Assembly (NCBI RefSeq): GCF_041261445.1
Contig: NZ_JBGCCU010000015.1
Location: 124,001-188,000, forward strand
Source: Catenulispora sp. EB89
Lineage (GTDB): Bacteria; Actinomycetota; Actinomycetes; Streptomycetales; Catenulisporaceae
Direction of reading: 5' to 3'
Length of the DNA: 64,000 nucleotides
Within the stretch, counting starts at the first letter, position 1, and each line of letters starts with the position of its first letter. Below the pieces are notes generated by a model that searched no databases, had not been told where the DNA came from, and worked only from the letters and a program-made list of their open reading frames with translations. Positions 2,925 to 63,587 of the stretch are shown here, piece by piece. Made by a program: the position numbers and the translations under genes.

Positions 2925-4289
2925 TCAGCGCTTGGCGCGCAGCATCTCCGCGACGAGGAACGCCAGGTCCAGCGACTGGCTGCGGTTCAGCCGGGGGTCG
3001 CACAGCGTCTCGTAGCGCTGGTGCAGCGCGTCGAACGCGATCTCCGCGCCGCCGCCGACGCACTCGGTGACGTCCTCGCCGGTGAGCTCGACGTGGATGC
3101 CGCCGGGGTGCGAGCCCAGGCCGTGGTGCACTTCGAAGAAGCCCTTGACCTCGTCGAGCACGTCGTCGAAGCGCCGGGTCTTGTGGCCCGAGGGCGCCTC
3201 GAAGGTGTTGCCGTGCATCGGGTCGCAGATCCAGGCCACCTTGTGGCCCTCGCTGCGGACCTTCTCCACCAGCGCCGGCAGCTTCTCGCGCACCTGCCCG
3301 GCGCCCATGCGGACGATGAACGACAGCCGGCCGGGCTCGCGCTCGGGGTCCAGCCGGTCCAGGTACGCCAGGGCGTCCTCGGGCCGGGTGCCCGGGCCCA
3401 GCTTGATCCCGATCGGGTTGCTGATCCGGCTGAAGTACTCGACGTGCGCGCCGTTCAGGTCCCGGGTGCGCTCGCCGATCCAGACGTAGTGGCCGCTGGT
3501 CGCGTAGGGCTTGCCGGTGCGCGAGTCGATGCGGGTCAGCGCCGACTCGTACGGGAGCACCAGGCCCTCGTGCGCGGCGTAGAACTCGACGGTGCGCAGC
3601 TCCTCCGGGTCGGTGCCGCACGCGCGCATGAACTGCAGGGCGCGGTCGATCTCGCCGGCCAGCACCTCGTAGCGCTCGCCGGACGGCGACCCGGCCACGA
3701 AGTCCTGGTTCCAGGCGTGCACCTGCCGCATGTCGGCGTAGCCGCCGGTGGTGAACGCGCGGACCAGGTTCAGTGTGGAGGCGCTGGACTGGTACATGCG
3801 CAGCAGCCGCTTGGGGTCCGGGGTGCGGGCCTCGGGGGTGAAGTCGAAGCCGTTGACCGAGTCCCCGCGGTACGCCGGAAGCGTGATCCCGTCGCGGGTC
3901 TCCGTGGAGCTGGAGCGGGGCTTGGAGTACTGCCCGGCGATGCGGCCGACCTTCACCACCGGCAGCGAGGCCGCGTAGGTGAGAACGACGGCCATCTGCA
4001 GCAGCGTCTTCAGCTTCGCCCGGATCGCGTCGGCGGTGTTGCCGGCGAACGTCTCGGCGCAGTCGCCGCCGGTGAGCATGAAGGCCTCGCCCCGGGACAC
4101 CGCGGCGATCCGGTCCTTGAGCTGGTCGGCCTCACCGGCGAAGACCAGCGGCGGATACGAGCGGAGCTCGGAGACGACGGTGGACAGCTCGGCGGCGTCC
4201 GGCCAGTCCGGCTGCTGGCCCGCGGGAAGCGCGGACCATGTGTCTTCGATGGGTCCGGTACCGGCCGGATTCCCGACAACTTCGCTCAT
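2925..4289 (-). CDS. aroG: Class II 3-deoxy-D-arabino-heptulosonate-7-phosphate synthase
   Basis: 454 residues, full length for the plant-like (class II) DAHP synthase that actinomycetes use for the first shikimate step, joining phosphoenolpyruvate and erythrose 4-phosphate. Visible family blocks include LTGGDCAETF (the metal-binding Cys), KVGRIAGQYSKPRS, YRGDSVNGFDFT, GLVLPYESALTR, SNPIGIKLGPGTRPED, CDPMHGNTFEA (metal-binding His) and GSHPGGIHVELTGEDVTECVGG. The start ATG at 4289 gives MSEVVGNPAG. Apparent longer frames that join it to the response-regulator region are artefacts of high GC. The gene lies upstream of threonine aldolase. The 194 bases between it and the regulator gene at 4484 hold no gene that I can see. 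Confidence 0.95.
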   Translation of the reverse strand: MSEVVGNPAGTGPIEDTWSALPAGQQPDWPDAAELSTVVSELRSYPPLVFAGEADQLKDRIAAVSRGEAFMLTGGDCAETFAGNTADAIRAKLKTLLQMAVVLTYAASLPVVKVGRIAGQYSKPRSSSTETRDGITLPAYRGDSVNGFDFTPEARTPDPKRLLRMYQSSASTLNLVRAFTTGGYADMRQVHAWNQDFVAGSPSGERYEVLAGEIDRALQFMRACGTDPEELRTVEFYAAHEGLVLPYESALTRIDSRTGKPYATSGHYVWIGERTRDLNGAHVEYFSRISNPIGIKLGPGTRPEDALAYLDRLDPEREPGRLSFIVRMGAGQVREKLPALVEKVRSEGHKVAWICDPMHGNTFEAPSGHKTRRFDDVLDEVKGFFEVHHGLGSHPGGIHVELTGEDVTECVGGGAEIAFDALHQRYETLCDPRLNRSQSLDLAFLVAEMLRAKR

Positions 4290-14546: not shown

Positions 14547-15341
14547 ATGGTGACCATGACCGCGCCCGTGCTCCCCGGTGCCGAACCGTTTTCGCACGAC
14601 CAGAGCGAGCCGGCCGGCCAGGCCGCACCGCGGATCGGCGTGCTTTTGTGCCACGGCTTCACCGGCTCGCCGCAGTCGCTGCGCCCCTGGGCGGAGTACC
14701 TGGCGGAGGCCGGGTTCGGGGTGCGGCTGCCGCGGCTGCCCGGACACGGCACCGACTGGCACGACATGCAGGTCACCACCTGGGACGACTGGTACGCCGA
14801 GGTGGACCGGGCGTTCCACGAGCTGCAGGCCGGGTACGACCGGGTGTTCGTCATGGGCCTGTCGATGGGCGGCACGCTCACCCTGCGGCTGGCCGAGCGG
14901 CACGGGGCCGACGTCGCGGGGATCGTGCTGGTCAACGCCTCGGTCAAGCCCGACAAGGCGGTGATCAGACTGGTGCCGGTGCTCAAGCACCTGGTGCCCA
15001 GCGTCCCCGGGATCGGGAACGCGATCAACAAGCAGGGTGTCAGCGAACTGGCCTACGACCGGGTGCCCCTGAAGGCCCTGGACTCCTTCGCCGGGGGCTG
15101 GCGCACCGTCCAGGCCGACCTGCCCAAGGTCACGCAGCCGACCCTGCTGTACCGGTCGGCGCAGGACCCGGTCGTCCATCCGTCGAACAGCGCCGTGATC
15201 CTGTCCCGCGTCTCCTCCACCGACGTGACCGAGAAGGTGCTGGAGAAGAGCTCGCACGTGGCCACCCTGGACCACGACGCGGAACAGATCTATGCCGGAA
15301 GCGTGGAATTCGTCCGGCGGGTCGCCGGGTTGGGGAATTGA
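14547..15341 (+). CDS. Carboxylesterase/lysophospholipase-like alpha/beta hydrolase
   Basis: 264 residues. Motifs are GVLLCHGFTGSPQSLRPWAE (oxyanion-hole HG), LPRLPGHGTDWHDMQVTTWD, the nucleophile elbow FVMGLSMGGTLTLRL (Ser in GLSMG), SAQDPVVHPSN (catalytic Asp) and SSHVATLDHD (catalytic His). This pattern is that of the Est30-type carboxylesterases and monoacylglycerol lipases, so it probably cleaves short-chain esters in the cytoplasm. ATG at 14547 is taken; a second ATG at 14556 is nearly as good. The neighbouring PlsC and acyl-CoA ligase genes suggest a lipid context. The next gene begins 1 base after its stop. Confidence 0.88.
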   Translation: MVTMTAPVLPGAEPFSHDQSEPAGQAAPRIGVLLCHGFTGSPQSLRPWAEYLAEAGFGVRLPRLPGHGTDWHDMQVTTWDDWYAEVDRAFHELQAGYDRVFVMGLSMGGTLTLRLAERHGADVAGIVLVNASVKPDKAVIRLVPVLKHLVPSVPGIGNAINKQGVSELAYDRVPLKALDSFAGGWRTVQADLPKVTQPTLLYRSAQDPVVHPSNSAVILSRVSSTDVTEKVLEKSSHVATLDHDAEQIYAGSVEFVRRVAGLGN

Positions 15342-15342
15342 T

Positions 15343-16035
15343 GTGAGCACCGCCAGCGAACAACCGGGGCCCGGCCTGCCCGAGGAGCCCGCCGAGTCGA
15401 GGGAGCCGGCCGACGCGCCCGCCGAGGAGGTGGCGACCGCCGAGGCCGCCGCCGACGGCGCGGAGTCGGACCGGCCCGAGCTGAACGATCTGACCGATCT
15501 ACCGGACCTGGTGGATCTGTCCGGCCTGTCCGGCGGGTCCGACACGCCCGACGAGCCCGCCTCCGACGAGCCCGAGACCGAGGACGAACGCATCGCGCGC
15601 GAGCGCGTGGAGTTCGACAAGCTGGTCGTCGCCTTCCACGGCGAGTCCGCCCCCGACCCGCAGCCGCAGGGACCGCAGGCCCCGGCACCGCGCAAGATCG
15701 TGCGCTACCCGGTCCTCGACCCGCAGCCGGCCTGGCACCCGGAGATCGTCGAACCGACCGACGAGACCACGGTCGACCCCCTGGACCACGTCGAGCACTA
15801 CGAGCCGCCGGACCCGCCGCTGCCGCAGGTCGCCGCGGCCACGCTGGCGTCGTGGACGCTGCTGCTGGGCGGCGTGGGGTTCCTGGTGCTGCACACGCTG
15901 CTGAAGTGGGACACGCCGGACTACTTCGGGTGGCTGGCCATCATCGGGGTGTTCGGCGGGATCATCAGCCTGGTGGCGCGGATGAAGCCGGACCGGGATG
16001 AGTATGACGATCCGGACAATGGTGCGGTGGTCTGA
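15343..16035 (+). CDS. Two-helix membrane protein with acidic cytoplasmic N-terminus
   Basis: 230 residues from a GTG at 15343; GGGG lies 7 bases upstream, inside the esterase gene end, so the two genes are coupled. Residues 1-155 are polar, acidic and Pro-rich (LPEEPAESREPADAPAEEVA and similar) and look disordered. Two membrane helices follow near residues 165-185 (LASWTLLLGGVGFLVLHTLL) and 195-212 (YFGWLAIIGVFGGIISLVAR), ending in a short acidic tail DEYDDPDNGAVV. Proteins of this build occur next to PlsC and MacRS in Streptomyces; none has a function known to me. Confidence 0.8.
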   Translation: MSTASEQPGPGLPEEPAESREPADAPAEEVATAEAAADGAESDRPELNDLTDLPDLVDLSGLSGGSDTPDEPASDEPETEDERIARERVEFDKLVVAFHGESAPDPQPQGPQAPAPRKIVRYPVLDPQPAWHPEIVEPTDETTVDPLDHVEHYEPPDPPLPQVAAATLASWTLLLGGVGFLVLHTLLKWDTPDYFGWLAIIGVFGGIISLVARMKPDRDEYDDPDNGAVV

Positions 16036-16429
16036 GGGGCTGCGGGGCTGAGCGAATTGCGGGCCCGAGTAGCCGGCGGGCTCGGCATTTTGTGGCGCTG
16101 CTGACCTATGTGTGGGTGCTGGTGGCGGCTGCGGTTTGTTTGTGGGTTGACAGTCAAAGGCGTTTTTTGACGGCTTCGCCTAAGGTTTGGTGACCTCGCT
16201 GGGGACGCAGTTTGGTGGTGCCCCGCAGGTGGCGCTGGCGACCGGCGGTGATGCTGGACACGACCGCGCGCGGGTCCGAGTCACTGCGCACACGTCGGGC
16301 GGGCGGCTGGCGGCCGCGTATGGGGGGCACCGAAGATCAAAGGCAGGGGCTTTCAGCCGGAGCCTCTGCTCGGAGGGATGGGGGGTCGCGTAGTCTGCCG
16401 CCGGACGCTGCTTGTGGTCGCCGAGTCCC

Positions 16430-16581
16430 GGATCCCTCGTCGCTGTCGTCGCCCTAAAGGGAACCATCCCGGCCTGGCGGGGTAAAGCCGCATCACACGC
16501 TGCTGTGGTCCAGCCTCATCCGGCTTGACCCCGCCAGTCCGGGATGGTTGTGCAAGCACCGCCGACAGCGACGAGGGATCC
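16430..16581. repeat. Hairpin h1 of element 1
   Basis: Terminal stem of 19 perfect pairs, GGATCCCTCGTCGCTGTCG (16430-16448) with its complement at 16563-16581. Inner stems are AACCATCCCGG/CCGGGATGGTT (16462-16472, 16539-16549), CTGGCGGGGT/ACCCCGCCAG (16474-16483, 16528-16537) and AAGCC/GGCTT (16485-16489, 16522-16526). The loop carries GCTGCTGTGG. Confidence 0.8.
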
Positions 16582-16693
16582 GGGACAACCCCACCTGTGG
16601 GAAGGATTCCCACCCCTTGGGCACGCCACGTCACCACCCGCAGGTGTACGCACCCGAGTGGACCGTGTCCACACCACAGGCCGGGGTTGTCCC
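16582..16693. repeat. 112-bp core of element 1, bounded by 11-bp inverted repeats
   Basis: Bounded by GGGACAACCCC (16582-16592) and GGGGTTGTCCC (16683-16693). Contains TGTGGGAAGGATTCCC and CACGCCACGTCACCACCCGC, both shared in the same orientation with the core of element 2 at 63191-63301. Confidence 0.75.
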
Positions 16694-16843
16694 GGGTTCC
16701 CCGTCGCGTCGGCGGGCGCAGCCAAGCTGACCGGGCCGGTGGTGTCAAGTCGCACGAAACCACACCACAGCAGCAGGGGTCCGACTTGATACCACCGGAC
16801 CGGTCTGCTTCCTTCCAGGCGACGACGCGACGGGGAACCCGGG
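16691..16843. repeat. Hairpin h2 of element 1
   Basis: Terminal stem of 21 perfect pairs (16691-16711 with 16823-16843; it starts CCCGGGTTCCCCGTCG). The inner stem is CCGGTGGTGTCAAGTCG (16736-16752) with 16782-16798, one G-T pair. The loop holds CCACAGCAGC, the complement of the h1 loop motif. The arrangement parallels h1 read on the other strand. Confidence 0.8.
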
Positions 16844-17276
16844 ACACAGGCGACCACAAGCAACGACCGGCAGCACACAGCGCGGCCCCCCATCCCCGGA
16901 GCGAGGCCGCTCGCCGCGCAGGCGCCGCCGGAGGCCCTGCCCTTGACTTTCAGGCACCCACCACACGCGGCCGCCAGCCGCCAGACCAAACGTGTGCGCA
17001 GTGACTCGGACCCGCGCGCGGTCGTGCACACGGACACCCGCCGGCCGCCAACGCAACCTGCGGGGCACCACCGAACTGCGCCACCCAGCGGATCCTTCTT
17101 AAAACCCTGCGAAGCCGTAAAAAGCCCTTAAAACCACCAACAAACTGCACCCGTTGCACCCGCCACACCCCAGCCACCCACACCCACACCCACACATCAA
17201 GCAAGGGCGCCCATTTTGTTAGGTGCTTTCGCCCCCTAGCACATGTGTACAGCAGGCCGCCGACACCGCCGTCCCC

Positions 17277-17984
17277 TCAGATCCGCACCACCGCCAGCAC
17301 CGGCCGGTGGTCGGTCGCCTGCGCCTCGTCGGCCTTCGAGATCAGGTCCGTCGGCACGCCGGCGCGCACCACGTGGATGTCCCTGGACACGAACACCGCG
17401 TCCAGGCGCTGGTAGGGGTTCACCCCGGTCGAGGTGAACTCGTCGCCCACCGGGGCCAGCATCCAGGCGTCGTTCAGCCGCTCGGTGATGATGTTCCACT
17501 CGATGCTGCCGGGGTAGCTGTTGAAGTCCCCGGCGAGGATGCGGGCCTTCGTGCGGTTGCGTTCGGCGAAGCCGTCGAGGTGTCCCAGGACCTCGCCGGC
17601 CTGGTAGACGCGTTGTTCCAGGTTCATGCTCAGGTGCGTCGAGGCGAGGGTGAAGCGGCTGTCGCCGATCCGGAGTGCGGCCAGCGCCATTCCTCGCAGG
17701 TGGTAGCCGCGGCGGTGCTTCAGGTAGAGCACCCGGGTGGCTTCCACCTTGACGTCGGGGCCGGCAAGCAGCAGGTTGCCGGAGGCGTCGGCGCCGCCGG
17801 TCACGACCCGCAGTCCGAAGGACGCCGCCATCACCAGGGCGGCACGGCGCCAGCCGAAGAAGCGGGGTGCCTCCTGGACGCAGACCACGTCAGGGGCACA
17901 GGAACGCACGACACGTGCGAGCGCTGCGCGGTCGTCTCTTAAGGACCGCACGTTATAAGTGAGTATGCGTACTGTCTCCTCCAT
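17277..17984 (-). CDS. Endonuclease/exonuclease/phosphatase-fold protein
   Basis: 235 residues from ATG at 17984 (MEETVRILTYNVRSLRDD). Metal-dependent nuclease-phosphatase motifs are in order: LTYNVRSLRDD (Asn), PDVVCVQEAPRF (catalytic Glu in QE), STHLSMN, ILAGDFNSYPGS (GDFN) and ATDHRPVLAVV (DH at the end). Small members of this superfamily cut DNA or remove phosphates from sugar or lipid phosphates; the substrate cannot be decided. Length agrees with actinomycete members next to glucokinase. A GTG at 17996 would add four residues. The start codon lies in one arm of the hairpin at 17983-18015. The gene follows glucokinase on the same strand and stops beside element 1. Confidence 0.87.
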   Translation of the reverse strand: MEETVRILTYNVRSLRDDRAALARVVRSCAPDVVCVQEAPRFFGWRRAALVMAASFGLRVVTGGADASGNLLLAGPDVKVEATRVLYLKHRRGYHLRGMALAALRIGDSRFTLASTHLSMNLEQRVYQAGEVLGHLDGFAERNRTKARILAGDFNSYPGSIEWNIITERLNDAWMLAPVGDEFTSTGVNPYQRLDAVFVSRDIHVVRAGVPTDLISKADEAQATDHRPVLAVVRI

Positions 17985-18015
17985 AGCGATCACCACGCTA
18001 GGCGGTGATCGCTAT
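17983..18015 (-). promoter_or_regulatory. Inverted repeat over the endonuclease-fold gene start
   Basis: Arms ATAGCGATCACC (17983-17994) and GGTGATCGCTAT (18004-18015) are a perfect 12-bp inverted repeat with a 9-base loop. The minus-strand distal arm includes the ATG of the gene at 17277-17984. There is no T-run, so a start-masking hairpin or an operator is likelier than a terminator. Confidence 0.55.
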
Positions 18016-62534: not shown

Positions 62535-63041
62535 GTTGCGGCGGGCCACCGGACCGCCAGCCCGCCGGCCGCGTGTCCCTGACCCCTGCGACCGTGGCGA
62601 TGCACTGCGATTGTGCGCTGCTTGCGCAGTAGAGGGGCGCTGCTGACCTGTGTGTGGGTGCTGGTGCTGGTGCTGGTGCTGGGTGTGGGGGGGGCGGGGG
62701 CGTGGTGGGTGTGGTGGGTGCGGTGGGTGTAGTGGGTGCGGTTTGCTTGTAGCTTTTAAGAGCTTTTTACGGCTTCGCAGGGCTTTAAGAAGGATCCGCT
62801 GGGTGGCGCAGTTCGGTGGTGCCCCGCAGGTTGCGCTGGCGGCTGGCGGTTGTTCGTGTGCACGACCGCGCGCGGGTCCGAGTCACTGCGCACGCGTTGC
62901 GTGGGCGGCAATCGTCGAGCGTGGTGGGTGCCTGAAAGTCAAAGACAGGGCCTCCGGCGGCGCCTGCGCGGCGAGCGGCACTCGCTCCGGGGAGGGGGGC
63001 CGCGCTGTCTGCCGGCGGACACTGCTTGTGGTCGCCTGTGT

Positions 63042-63193
63042 CCCGGGTTCCCCGTCGCATCGTCGCCTCACGGAAGCAGACCGGTCCGGTGGTATCAAGT
63101 CGGACCCCTGCTACTGTGGTGCGGTTTCGTGCGACTTGACACCACCGGCCCGGCCAGCTTGGCTACGCCCGCCGACGCGACGGGGAACCCGGG
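63042..63193. repeat. Hairpin of element 2, matching h2 of element 1
   Basis: A 21-bp terminal stem (63042-63062 with 63173-63193, one mismatched pair) and an inner stem CCGGTGGTATCAAGTCG (63086-63102) with CGACTTGACACCACCGG near 63132-63148. Read from the other strand it matches h2 of element 1, with scattered changes. Confidence 0.75.
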
Positions 63194-63301
63194 ACAACCC
63201 CGCCTGTGGGAAGGATTCCCGCGTCTTGAGCACGCCACGTCACCACCCGCACGTGTGGGCACCCGAGTGGACCCCGTCCACACCACAGTGGGGGTTGTCC
63301 C
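63191..63301. repeat. 111-bp core of element 2
   Basis: Bounded by GGGACAACCCC (63191-63201) and GGGGTTGTCCC (63291-63301). Shares TGTGGGAAGGATTCCC, CACGCCACGTCACCACCCGC and CACCCGAGTGGAC in the same order and strand with element 1; about nine positions in ten agree by eye. Confidence 0.75.
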
Positions 63302-63587
63302 GGATCGTTGGGGATCCCTCAGAGTCTCGAGTGCCCCCGCCGGAGGCGCCTGCTCTTGACCTTAGGCACCCACCACGCCCGACGATTGCCGCCTACGTAA
63401 CGCATGCGCAGTGACTCGGACCGGTGCGCGGTCGTGGACACCTACTCCGCCGGCCGCCAGCGTAGCCAGTGGGGCATCACGGAACTGCGTCCCCCTGCGA
63501 GGTCACCAAACCTTAGGCGAAGCCGTAAAAAGCTCCTAAAACCCACCAACAAACCGCACCCAACACACACCAAGCAGAAGCGCCCAA

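Follow-up and report, generated by a model that had tools for sequence, protein, structure and literature searches.

The window, a 64,000-nucleotide stretch from the genome of the soil actinomycete Catenulispora sp. EB89, carries at 16094–17211 of the forward strand a 1118-bp non-autonomous foldback transposon with ISL3-type ends, here called element 1, which lies between the convergent open frames 15292–16035 (+) and 17277–17996 (−). Its left and right terminal inverted repeats, GGCGCTGCTGACCTATGTGTGGGTG (16094–16118, +) and GGCGCCCTTGCTTGATGTGTGGGTG (17187–17211, −), were located in an end-pattern scan of the genome, and directly outside them the 8-bp target-site duplication CATTTTGT stands at 16086–16093 and, letter for letter, at 17212–17219. 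Between the ends, the forward strand reads through the left outer arm of a giant imperfect palindrome (16094–16423), hairpin A (16424–16581), the core or hairpin B (16582–16693), hairpin C (16694–16845), and the right outer arm (16846–17211), a segment order that BLAST returned as OL+ A+ B+ C+ OR+. The outer arms were assigned from the fold and the BLAST segment order, and hairpins A and C from the fold, comparison with shuffled sequences, and covarying pairs. The core measures 112 bp and is bounded by GGGACAACCCC, starting at 16582, and GGGGTTGTCCC, ending at 16693, exactly where the earlier note had placed them. Long inverted repeats make up most of the element, with both-strand matches spanning hundreds of base pairs. 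Folded as single-stranded DNA, element 1 is predicted to form a long outer stem with three hairpins, namely, A, the core, and C; the A–core–C block is far more stable than its shuffles (z −17, none of 100 equally stable), while the core alone is less extreme (z −4, none of 200).

The second copy, element 2, occupies 62636–63584 on the reverse strand, its left end coming from the scans for ends and duplications and its right end being set from the letters. It contains hairpin C at 63040–63190 (−) and a 111-bp core at 63191–63301 (+), and its segment order is OR− C− B+ OR+. The claim from which this analysis started, that the arms of the two elements are inverted with respect to each other and the core points the same way in both, was borne out by this order, so that the core of element 2 is opposite to that of element 1 relative to hairpin C. 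Hairpin A has no match in element 2 in the BLAST segment order, an absence that the earlier note did not mention, and the outermost 25 bp beside hairpin C are of the left type. A target duplication was sought at both ends of element 2, and no clear one was found. On its upstream side lies a gene that we take to be murC from its protein letters, followed, downstream of the element, by a gene on the same strand. The top three hits of the murC flank come from Catenulispora.

The sites of both elements were compared with those of related genomes. In the relative G001, with about 95% identity in the flank, the sequence runs uninterrupted through the site of element 1, straight through GGCATTTTGTTAGG, and no element match lies near this flank in any of the nine relatives' loci. 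Element 2 is missing at the aligned site in four relatives (G001, G007, G008, and G009), and BLAST returned no element match at its site in eight of the nine relatives' loci. These empty sites record past movement of the elements. Near the murC flank used by element 2, a locus of G002 (L203, 1951–3363) holds weak element-like matches of 61–63% identity arranged as an inverted pair, perhaps another insertion. In addition, GGCATTTTGTTAGG is a repeated target common to five elements, i.e., element 1, L012, L013, L018, and L022 (mutated in the last), which suggests that a small intergenic repeat attracts insertions.

Searched with the middle of element 1, the own genome gave at least 90 matches from the 40 places scored out of 106 candidates; merging produced about 40 loci, both window copies included, and the 38 others were fetched. 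The core itself is likewise present in many own-genome copies, with 40 of 83 candidate places scored. Element matches occur in all ten same-genus genomes searched, the own genome included, and the other genomes gave weak matches only, in 10 of 50 and with a best E value of 3.6e-6. The end pattern GGCGCYnnTGMYYnRTGTGTGGGTG was found at 48 sites of the genome at up to two mismatches, against none for the reversed control. An 8-bp direct repeat outside the ends was exact at 9, carried one mismatch at 4, and was lacking at 19 of the 32 loci with an end pair, although these pairs came from a looser pattern and some may be spurious.

The copies vary in their build. The outer arm beside hairpin A is of two sequence types and that beside hairpin C of one. 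Two loci, L176 (G000:C29:41858) and L171 (G000:C2:11862), are short internal-deletion derivatives, the end pair of the former being 260 bp apart. In L031, insertions of about 180 bp occupy the matching place in hairpins A and C (2541–2721 and 2990–3169) and are flanked by apparent 8–9-bp duplications. A related family (L034, L035, and L037–L041) has the C-like hairpin and pieces of the outer arm, some of them repeated, in common with the elements, and in the BLAST segment order it has no match to hairpin A or to the core type of element 1.

Core orientation was read from the BLAST segment order and then from motifs at the core ends, state 1 denoting the orientation of element 1 and state 2 that of element 2, and both states appeared in the BLAST segment order among copies with hairpins A and C intact. 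A comparison of orientations over the genomic copies had been proposed in the earlier note; among 16 classifiable own-genome copies, ten are in state 1 (L009–L014, L019, L020, L022, and element 1) and six in state 2 (L015–L018, L031, and element 2). Seven further own-genome copies retain part of a core beside hairpin A, oriented as in element 1 in L021, L023, L026, and L030 and as in element 2 in L024, L027, and L028, and the remaining loci of the 40 are without a usable core. In a second species, G009, 30 loci chosen among the top-ranking element 1 matches (of 119 candidates, 40 were scored) comprise 14 copies in state 1, one of them ambiguous, 9 in state 2, 3 with another core, and 4 with an incomplete A–core–C block. 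The six loci of G007 comprise three like element 2, one with another core, and two incomplete, and the six of G001 comprise one of each orientation, one with another core, and three incomplete. The ambiguous copies L128 and L148, in which both hairpins resemble one type, were entered as state 1 in the counts and trees and excluded from the covariation analysis, and L143, L147, L124, L126, and L129, with other core types, were left out of the classification. A flip of the whole A–core–C block against the outer arms was sought in the BLAST segment table and was not seen. The sequence in the window is thus a copy of a family of jumping DNA whose core sits either way in different copies; rather than one fixed orientation throughout, both are found in many copies of two species.

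In the only finished genome read, G004, 18 loci include five complete A–core–C blocks (L151–L153, L155, and L156), in which related hairpins A and C surround a different core of 186–189 bp, in a single orientation as judged by eye. The core seems to have been replaced as a unit between species.

Misjoining of repeated palindromes during assembly might in principle have produced the two junction types, since the own assembly (11.9 Mb) is divided into 70 contigs and several contig ends fall inside these elements. However, separately assembled genomes of two species each contain both types of junction, within species-specific sequence, which makes such an artefact highly improbable. The junctions are local, extending over only tens of base pairs, and therefore both probably exist in reads; it is chiefly the assignment of a junction to a given copy that is at risk.

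The letters adjoining the core agree with the idea, put forward in the earlier note, that the core alone had turned between short inverted repeats, since those diagnostic of the arms just outside the repeat remain with their arm. In the own genome, all 16 classified copies have GATCC outside the repeat on the A side, and 14 of them have GGGTTCC on the C side (L020 and L022 have lost hairpin C); neither motif differs between the two states. Of the 23 copies in G009, 14 (five in state 1 and nine in state 2) carry the variant TTTGTCCC beside hairpin C, and one carries its complement beside hairpin A. Letters specific to the core start past CTGTGG. With arm letters fixed outside the repeat and core letters inside it, the exchange is confined to roughly 12–24 bp of the repeat. 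This length is short for RecA-type recombination, and an exchange of 12–24 bp fits template switching or hairpin processing. In yeast, template switching between short inverted repeats is described in PMC8604942 as homogenising the arms and inverting the spacer.

The Catenulispora elements bear both of these marks, the stem matching being evident in the hairpins on either side of the core. Over 37 related rows, which are copies and hence not independent, and with RNA energy parameters, 10 of 46 predicted pairs in hairpin A and 8 of 51 in hairpin C have changed on both sides with pairing kept. Selection on structure predicts the same covariation, and the covariation therefore does not decide the mechanism. 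Selection could have kept the hairpins matched while a dedicated enzyme of the host or the element turned the cores, which would make this ISL3-derived, genome-wide set of cloverleaf elements a slow-switching, structured RNA or DNA signal at dozens of intergenic sites; we regard this as highly improbable.

The lineages of arms and cores differ in how orientation is distributed over them. On the arm tree (A plus C, 39 rows), 13 orientation changes are scattered, a scatter that misjoined contigs could inflate, whereas the core tree (44 rows, with cores turned one way) requires only 6 and includes a branch, with a support of 91, that has the state 1 cores of the own genome to one side. This scatter on the one tree and clustering on the other point to few inversions and to cores shuffled between arms; as orientation follows the core lineage and not the arm lineage, cores and arms have recombined. 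When the repeat ends were trimmed, the inner-core tree showed 8 orientation changes, of which 1 falls in the own genome and 4 in G009. For the inner cores, placing all flipped cores in one clade was rejected (p-AU 5.4e-8), and one flipped clade per species was not (p 0.295 and 0.445), which means that the core inverted at least twice in the genus and that the flips were few. The single flip in one copy that the earlier note had considered the simplest reading is not supported, given both orientations in many copies and a core tree that calls for a few inversions.

RecA-type homologous recombination or gene conversion might have swapped the arms around a core of fixed orientation, rendering a spacer-specific process unnecessary. 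Cores and arms do recombine, as the 13 against 6 changes on the two trees attest, several hundred base pairs of arm are common to the copies, and element 1 and L015 have arms that are 97% identical around opposite cores. However, turning the core alone by this route needs an exchange inside the 12–24-bp repeat, with the arm-diagnostic letters directly outside it unmoved, and the inner-core tree implies at least two origins of opposite cores, which the shuffling of one orientation cannot yield. We consider this explanation possible but rather unlikely as a full account. The recombination of arms that the earlier note had named as an alternative contributes to the pattern, and inversions of the core are also required.

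Inner cores of opposite orientation reach 93% identity in the own genome and, over about 70 bp, 97% in G009, and cores in the same state reach 97–100%. The 97% value in G009 means that some flips may be fairly recent. A further explanation dispenses with recent inversions: two ancient forms, one per orientation, would coexist in the genus, and gene conversion within each species would have homogenised the cores. It would account for both orientations in at least two species and for L018, a divergent flipped core of the own genome that the core tree places among other species. Cores oppositely oriented relative to their arms would need to undergo conversion with each other while the letters at the arm–core junctions were spared, and more events would be required than by two or more inversions, so that we hold this explanation to be decidedly unlikely.

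A reversible switch had also been offered in the earlier note, and the core tree does not support one that a site-specific recombinase would turn at the GGGACAACCCC and GGGGTTGTCCC repeats, in the manner of phase-variable segments: orientation clusters by core lineage, with 6 changes over 44 rows, instead of changing freely. The breakpoints do coincide with the repeat, and the 97% identity of opposite cores in G009 would be in keeping with switching; short inverted repeats around a segment, typically of 10–20 nucleotides, are given as a hallmark of such systems in PMC5903667. Against a switch, the inner-core tree has only the single change in the own genome and four in G009, and no identical core was found in both orientations within the own species or within G009. 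Moreover, no recombinase gene was seen by eye in the open-frame lists of elements 1 and 2, and, just as in A and C, the repeat is no more than a hairpin base. A switch is therefore very unlikely.

The reading that we prefer, with a probability of roughly two in three, is that of a genus-wide foldback family with ISL3-type ends, in which template switching has inverted the core and flipped cores have spread through transposition and recombination. The family consists of non-autonomous, giant MITE-like palindromes of about 1.0–1.1 kb when complete, in which two long imperfect inverted arms surround hairpin A, the core, and hairpin C, the core lying as spacer between the two halves of a short inverted repeat (GGGACAACCCC n CCTGTGG). 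The replication machinery would rarely switch template between the arms of this repeat, or an extruded hairpin would be processed, and either event could re-insert the spacer reversed and keep the stems matched. Transposition would then multiply flipped cores, and recombination in the arms would be the route by which cores, as the computed trees show, were swapped between elements. The core flips are most likely rare events in DNA copying and not the work of an active genetic switch.

The enzyme that moved the family was sought through the ends. A relic in G009 (L210) comprises the last part of a transposase, whose stop codon falls within GGCGCCTCTGACCTATGTGTGGGTGG when the opposite strand is read; it matches the Pfam model DDE_Tnp_ISL3 at 6e-28 and the NCBIfam ISL3 model under the whole-protein cut-off, as would be expected of a fragment. 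For comparison, five plasmid records were read among 40 with a relative. Three of the five elements have convincing end pairs (GGCTCTCCTGTCGCTTCCGT, GGCTCTACTGATCGATCTGT, and GGCTCTTCTGCTCCATCTGT) together with 8-bp AT-rich duplications, and one of the remaining two has a weak pair and the other no pair, with the right end GGCTCTCCTGTCGTATCCGTGGG. The foldback ends, GGCGCYnnTG...TGTGTGGG, correspond to GGCTCT..TG...YGTGGG in these three, and a fourth element bears the plasmid pattern at its right end only. Such ISL3-type ends, taken with the 8-bp duplications, indicate that an ISL3 transposase probably mobilised the foldback elements in trans; the ends are observed, and the mobilisation is deduced from them. 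Among the loci read, no intact autonomous element with foldback ends was found, the single truncated relic of G009 having one matching end.

Other candidates for the partner were set aside. The own genome has three ISL3 matches, and the one with a recognisable end pair bears other ends, GGCTCTTCGAAGTTAG. In G009, L206 encodes a 451-aa IS256 transposase between foldback arms (insert 1391–2935), and its target duplication is also exact; by eye, however, the gene sits in an apparent nested insertion, with terminal repeats of its own, inside the core. Relatives of this gene at E ≤ 1e-60 were found, besides the query, only in G007 (2 matches, 49% identity) among four genomes. IS6 elements produce 8-bp duplications and have GGnnCTGTTG ends, and no PF13610 match was obtained in five genomes.

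Foldback transposons are known mainly from eukaryotes, and among the open-access literature records viewed, none was seen to describe such a foldback element in bacteria or to report these repeats from Catenulispora. With ISL3 insertion sequences, the family shares the ends GGC.CY..TG.......YGTGGG, a target duplication of 8 bp, and a transposase relic whose sequence stops in the foldback terminus; however, the foldback copies read have no transposase, and self-complementary arms of 1.0–1.1 kb replace the gene. MITEs, such as the Tn3-derived TIMEs, are similar in being non-autonomous and multicopy, with IS-matching ends and a strong fold, and are about 30–300 bp in size according to PMC4133298, whereas the Catenulispora elements measure about 1.1 kb, have three nested hairpins, and hold the core in either orientation. 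Eukaryotic foldback-like transposons, exemplified by Galileo of Drosophila, have very long terminal inverted repeats and structurally diverse copies (PMC4168063); Galileo belongs to superfamily P and is eukaryotic, and the resemblance is one of working only. Recombinase-driven invertible segments, as characterised in PMC5903667, are likewise intergenic, bounded by short inverted repeats, and found in both orientations; in Catenulispora, by contrast, orientation is inherited with the core lineage.

A bacterial foldback family present dozens of times across related genomes provides a natural record of spacer inversion, stem matching, and hairpin swapping. Since several copies hold opposite cores between arms that are almost the same in sequence, they could allow a direct measurement of how fast, and at which breakpoint, a segment inverts between very short inverted repeats. 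Caution is warranted, as such elements break assemblies and can mimic regulatory switches.

Secondary insertions were also encountered in G009, in which a shared insert is present in the cores of L207 (988–1272), L208 (1161–1381), and L209 (1120–1399), and L221 runs out into other sequence. Such later insertions may favour the core.
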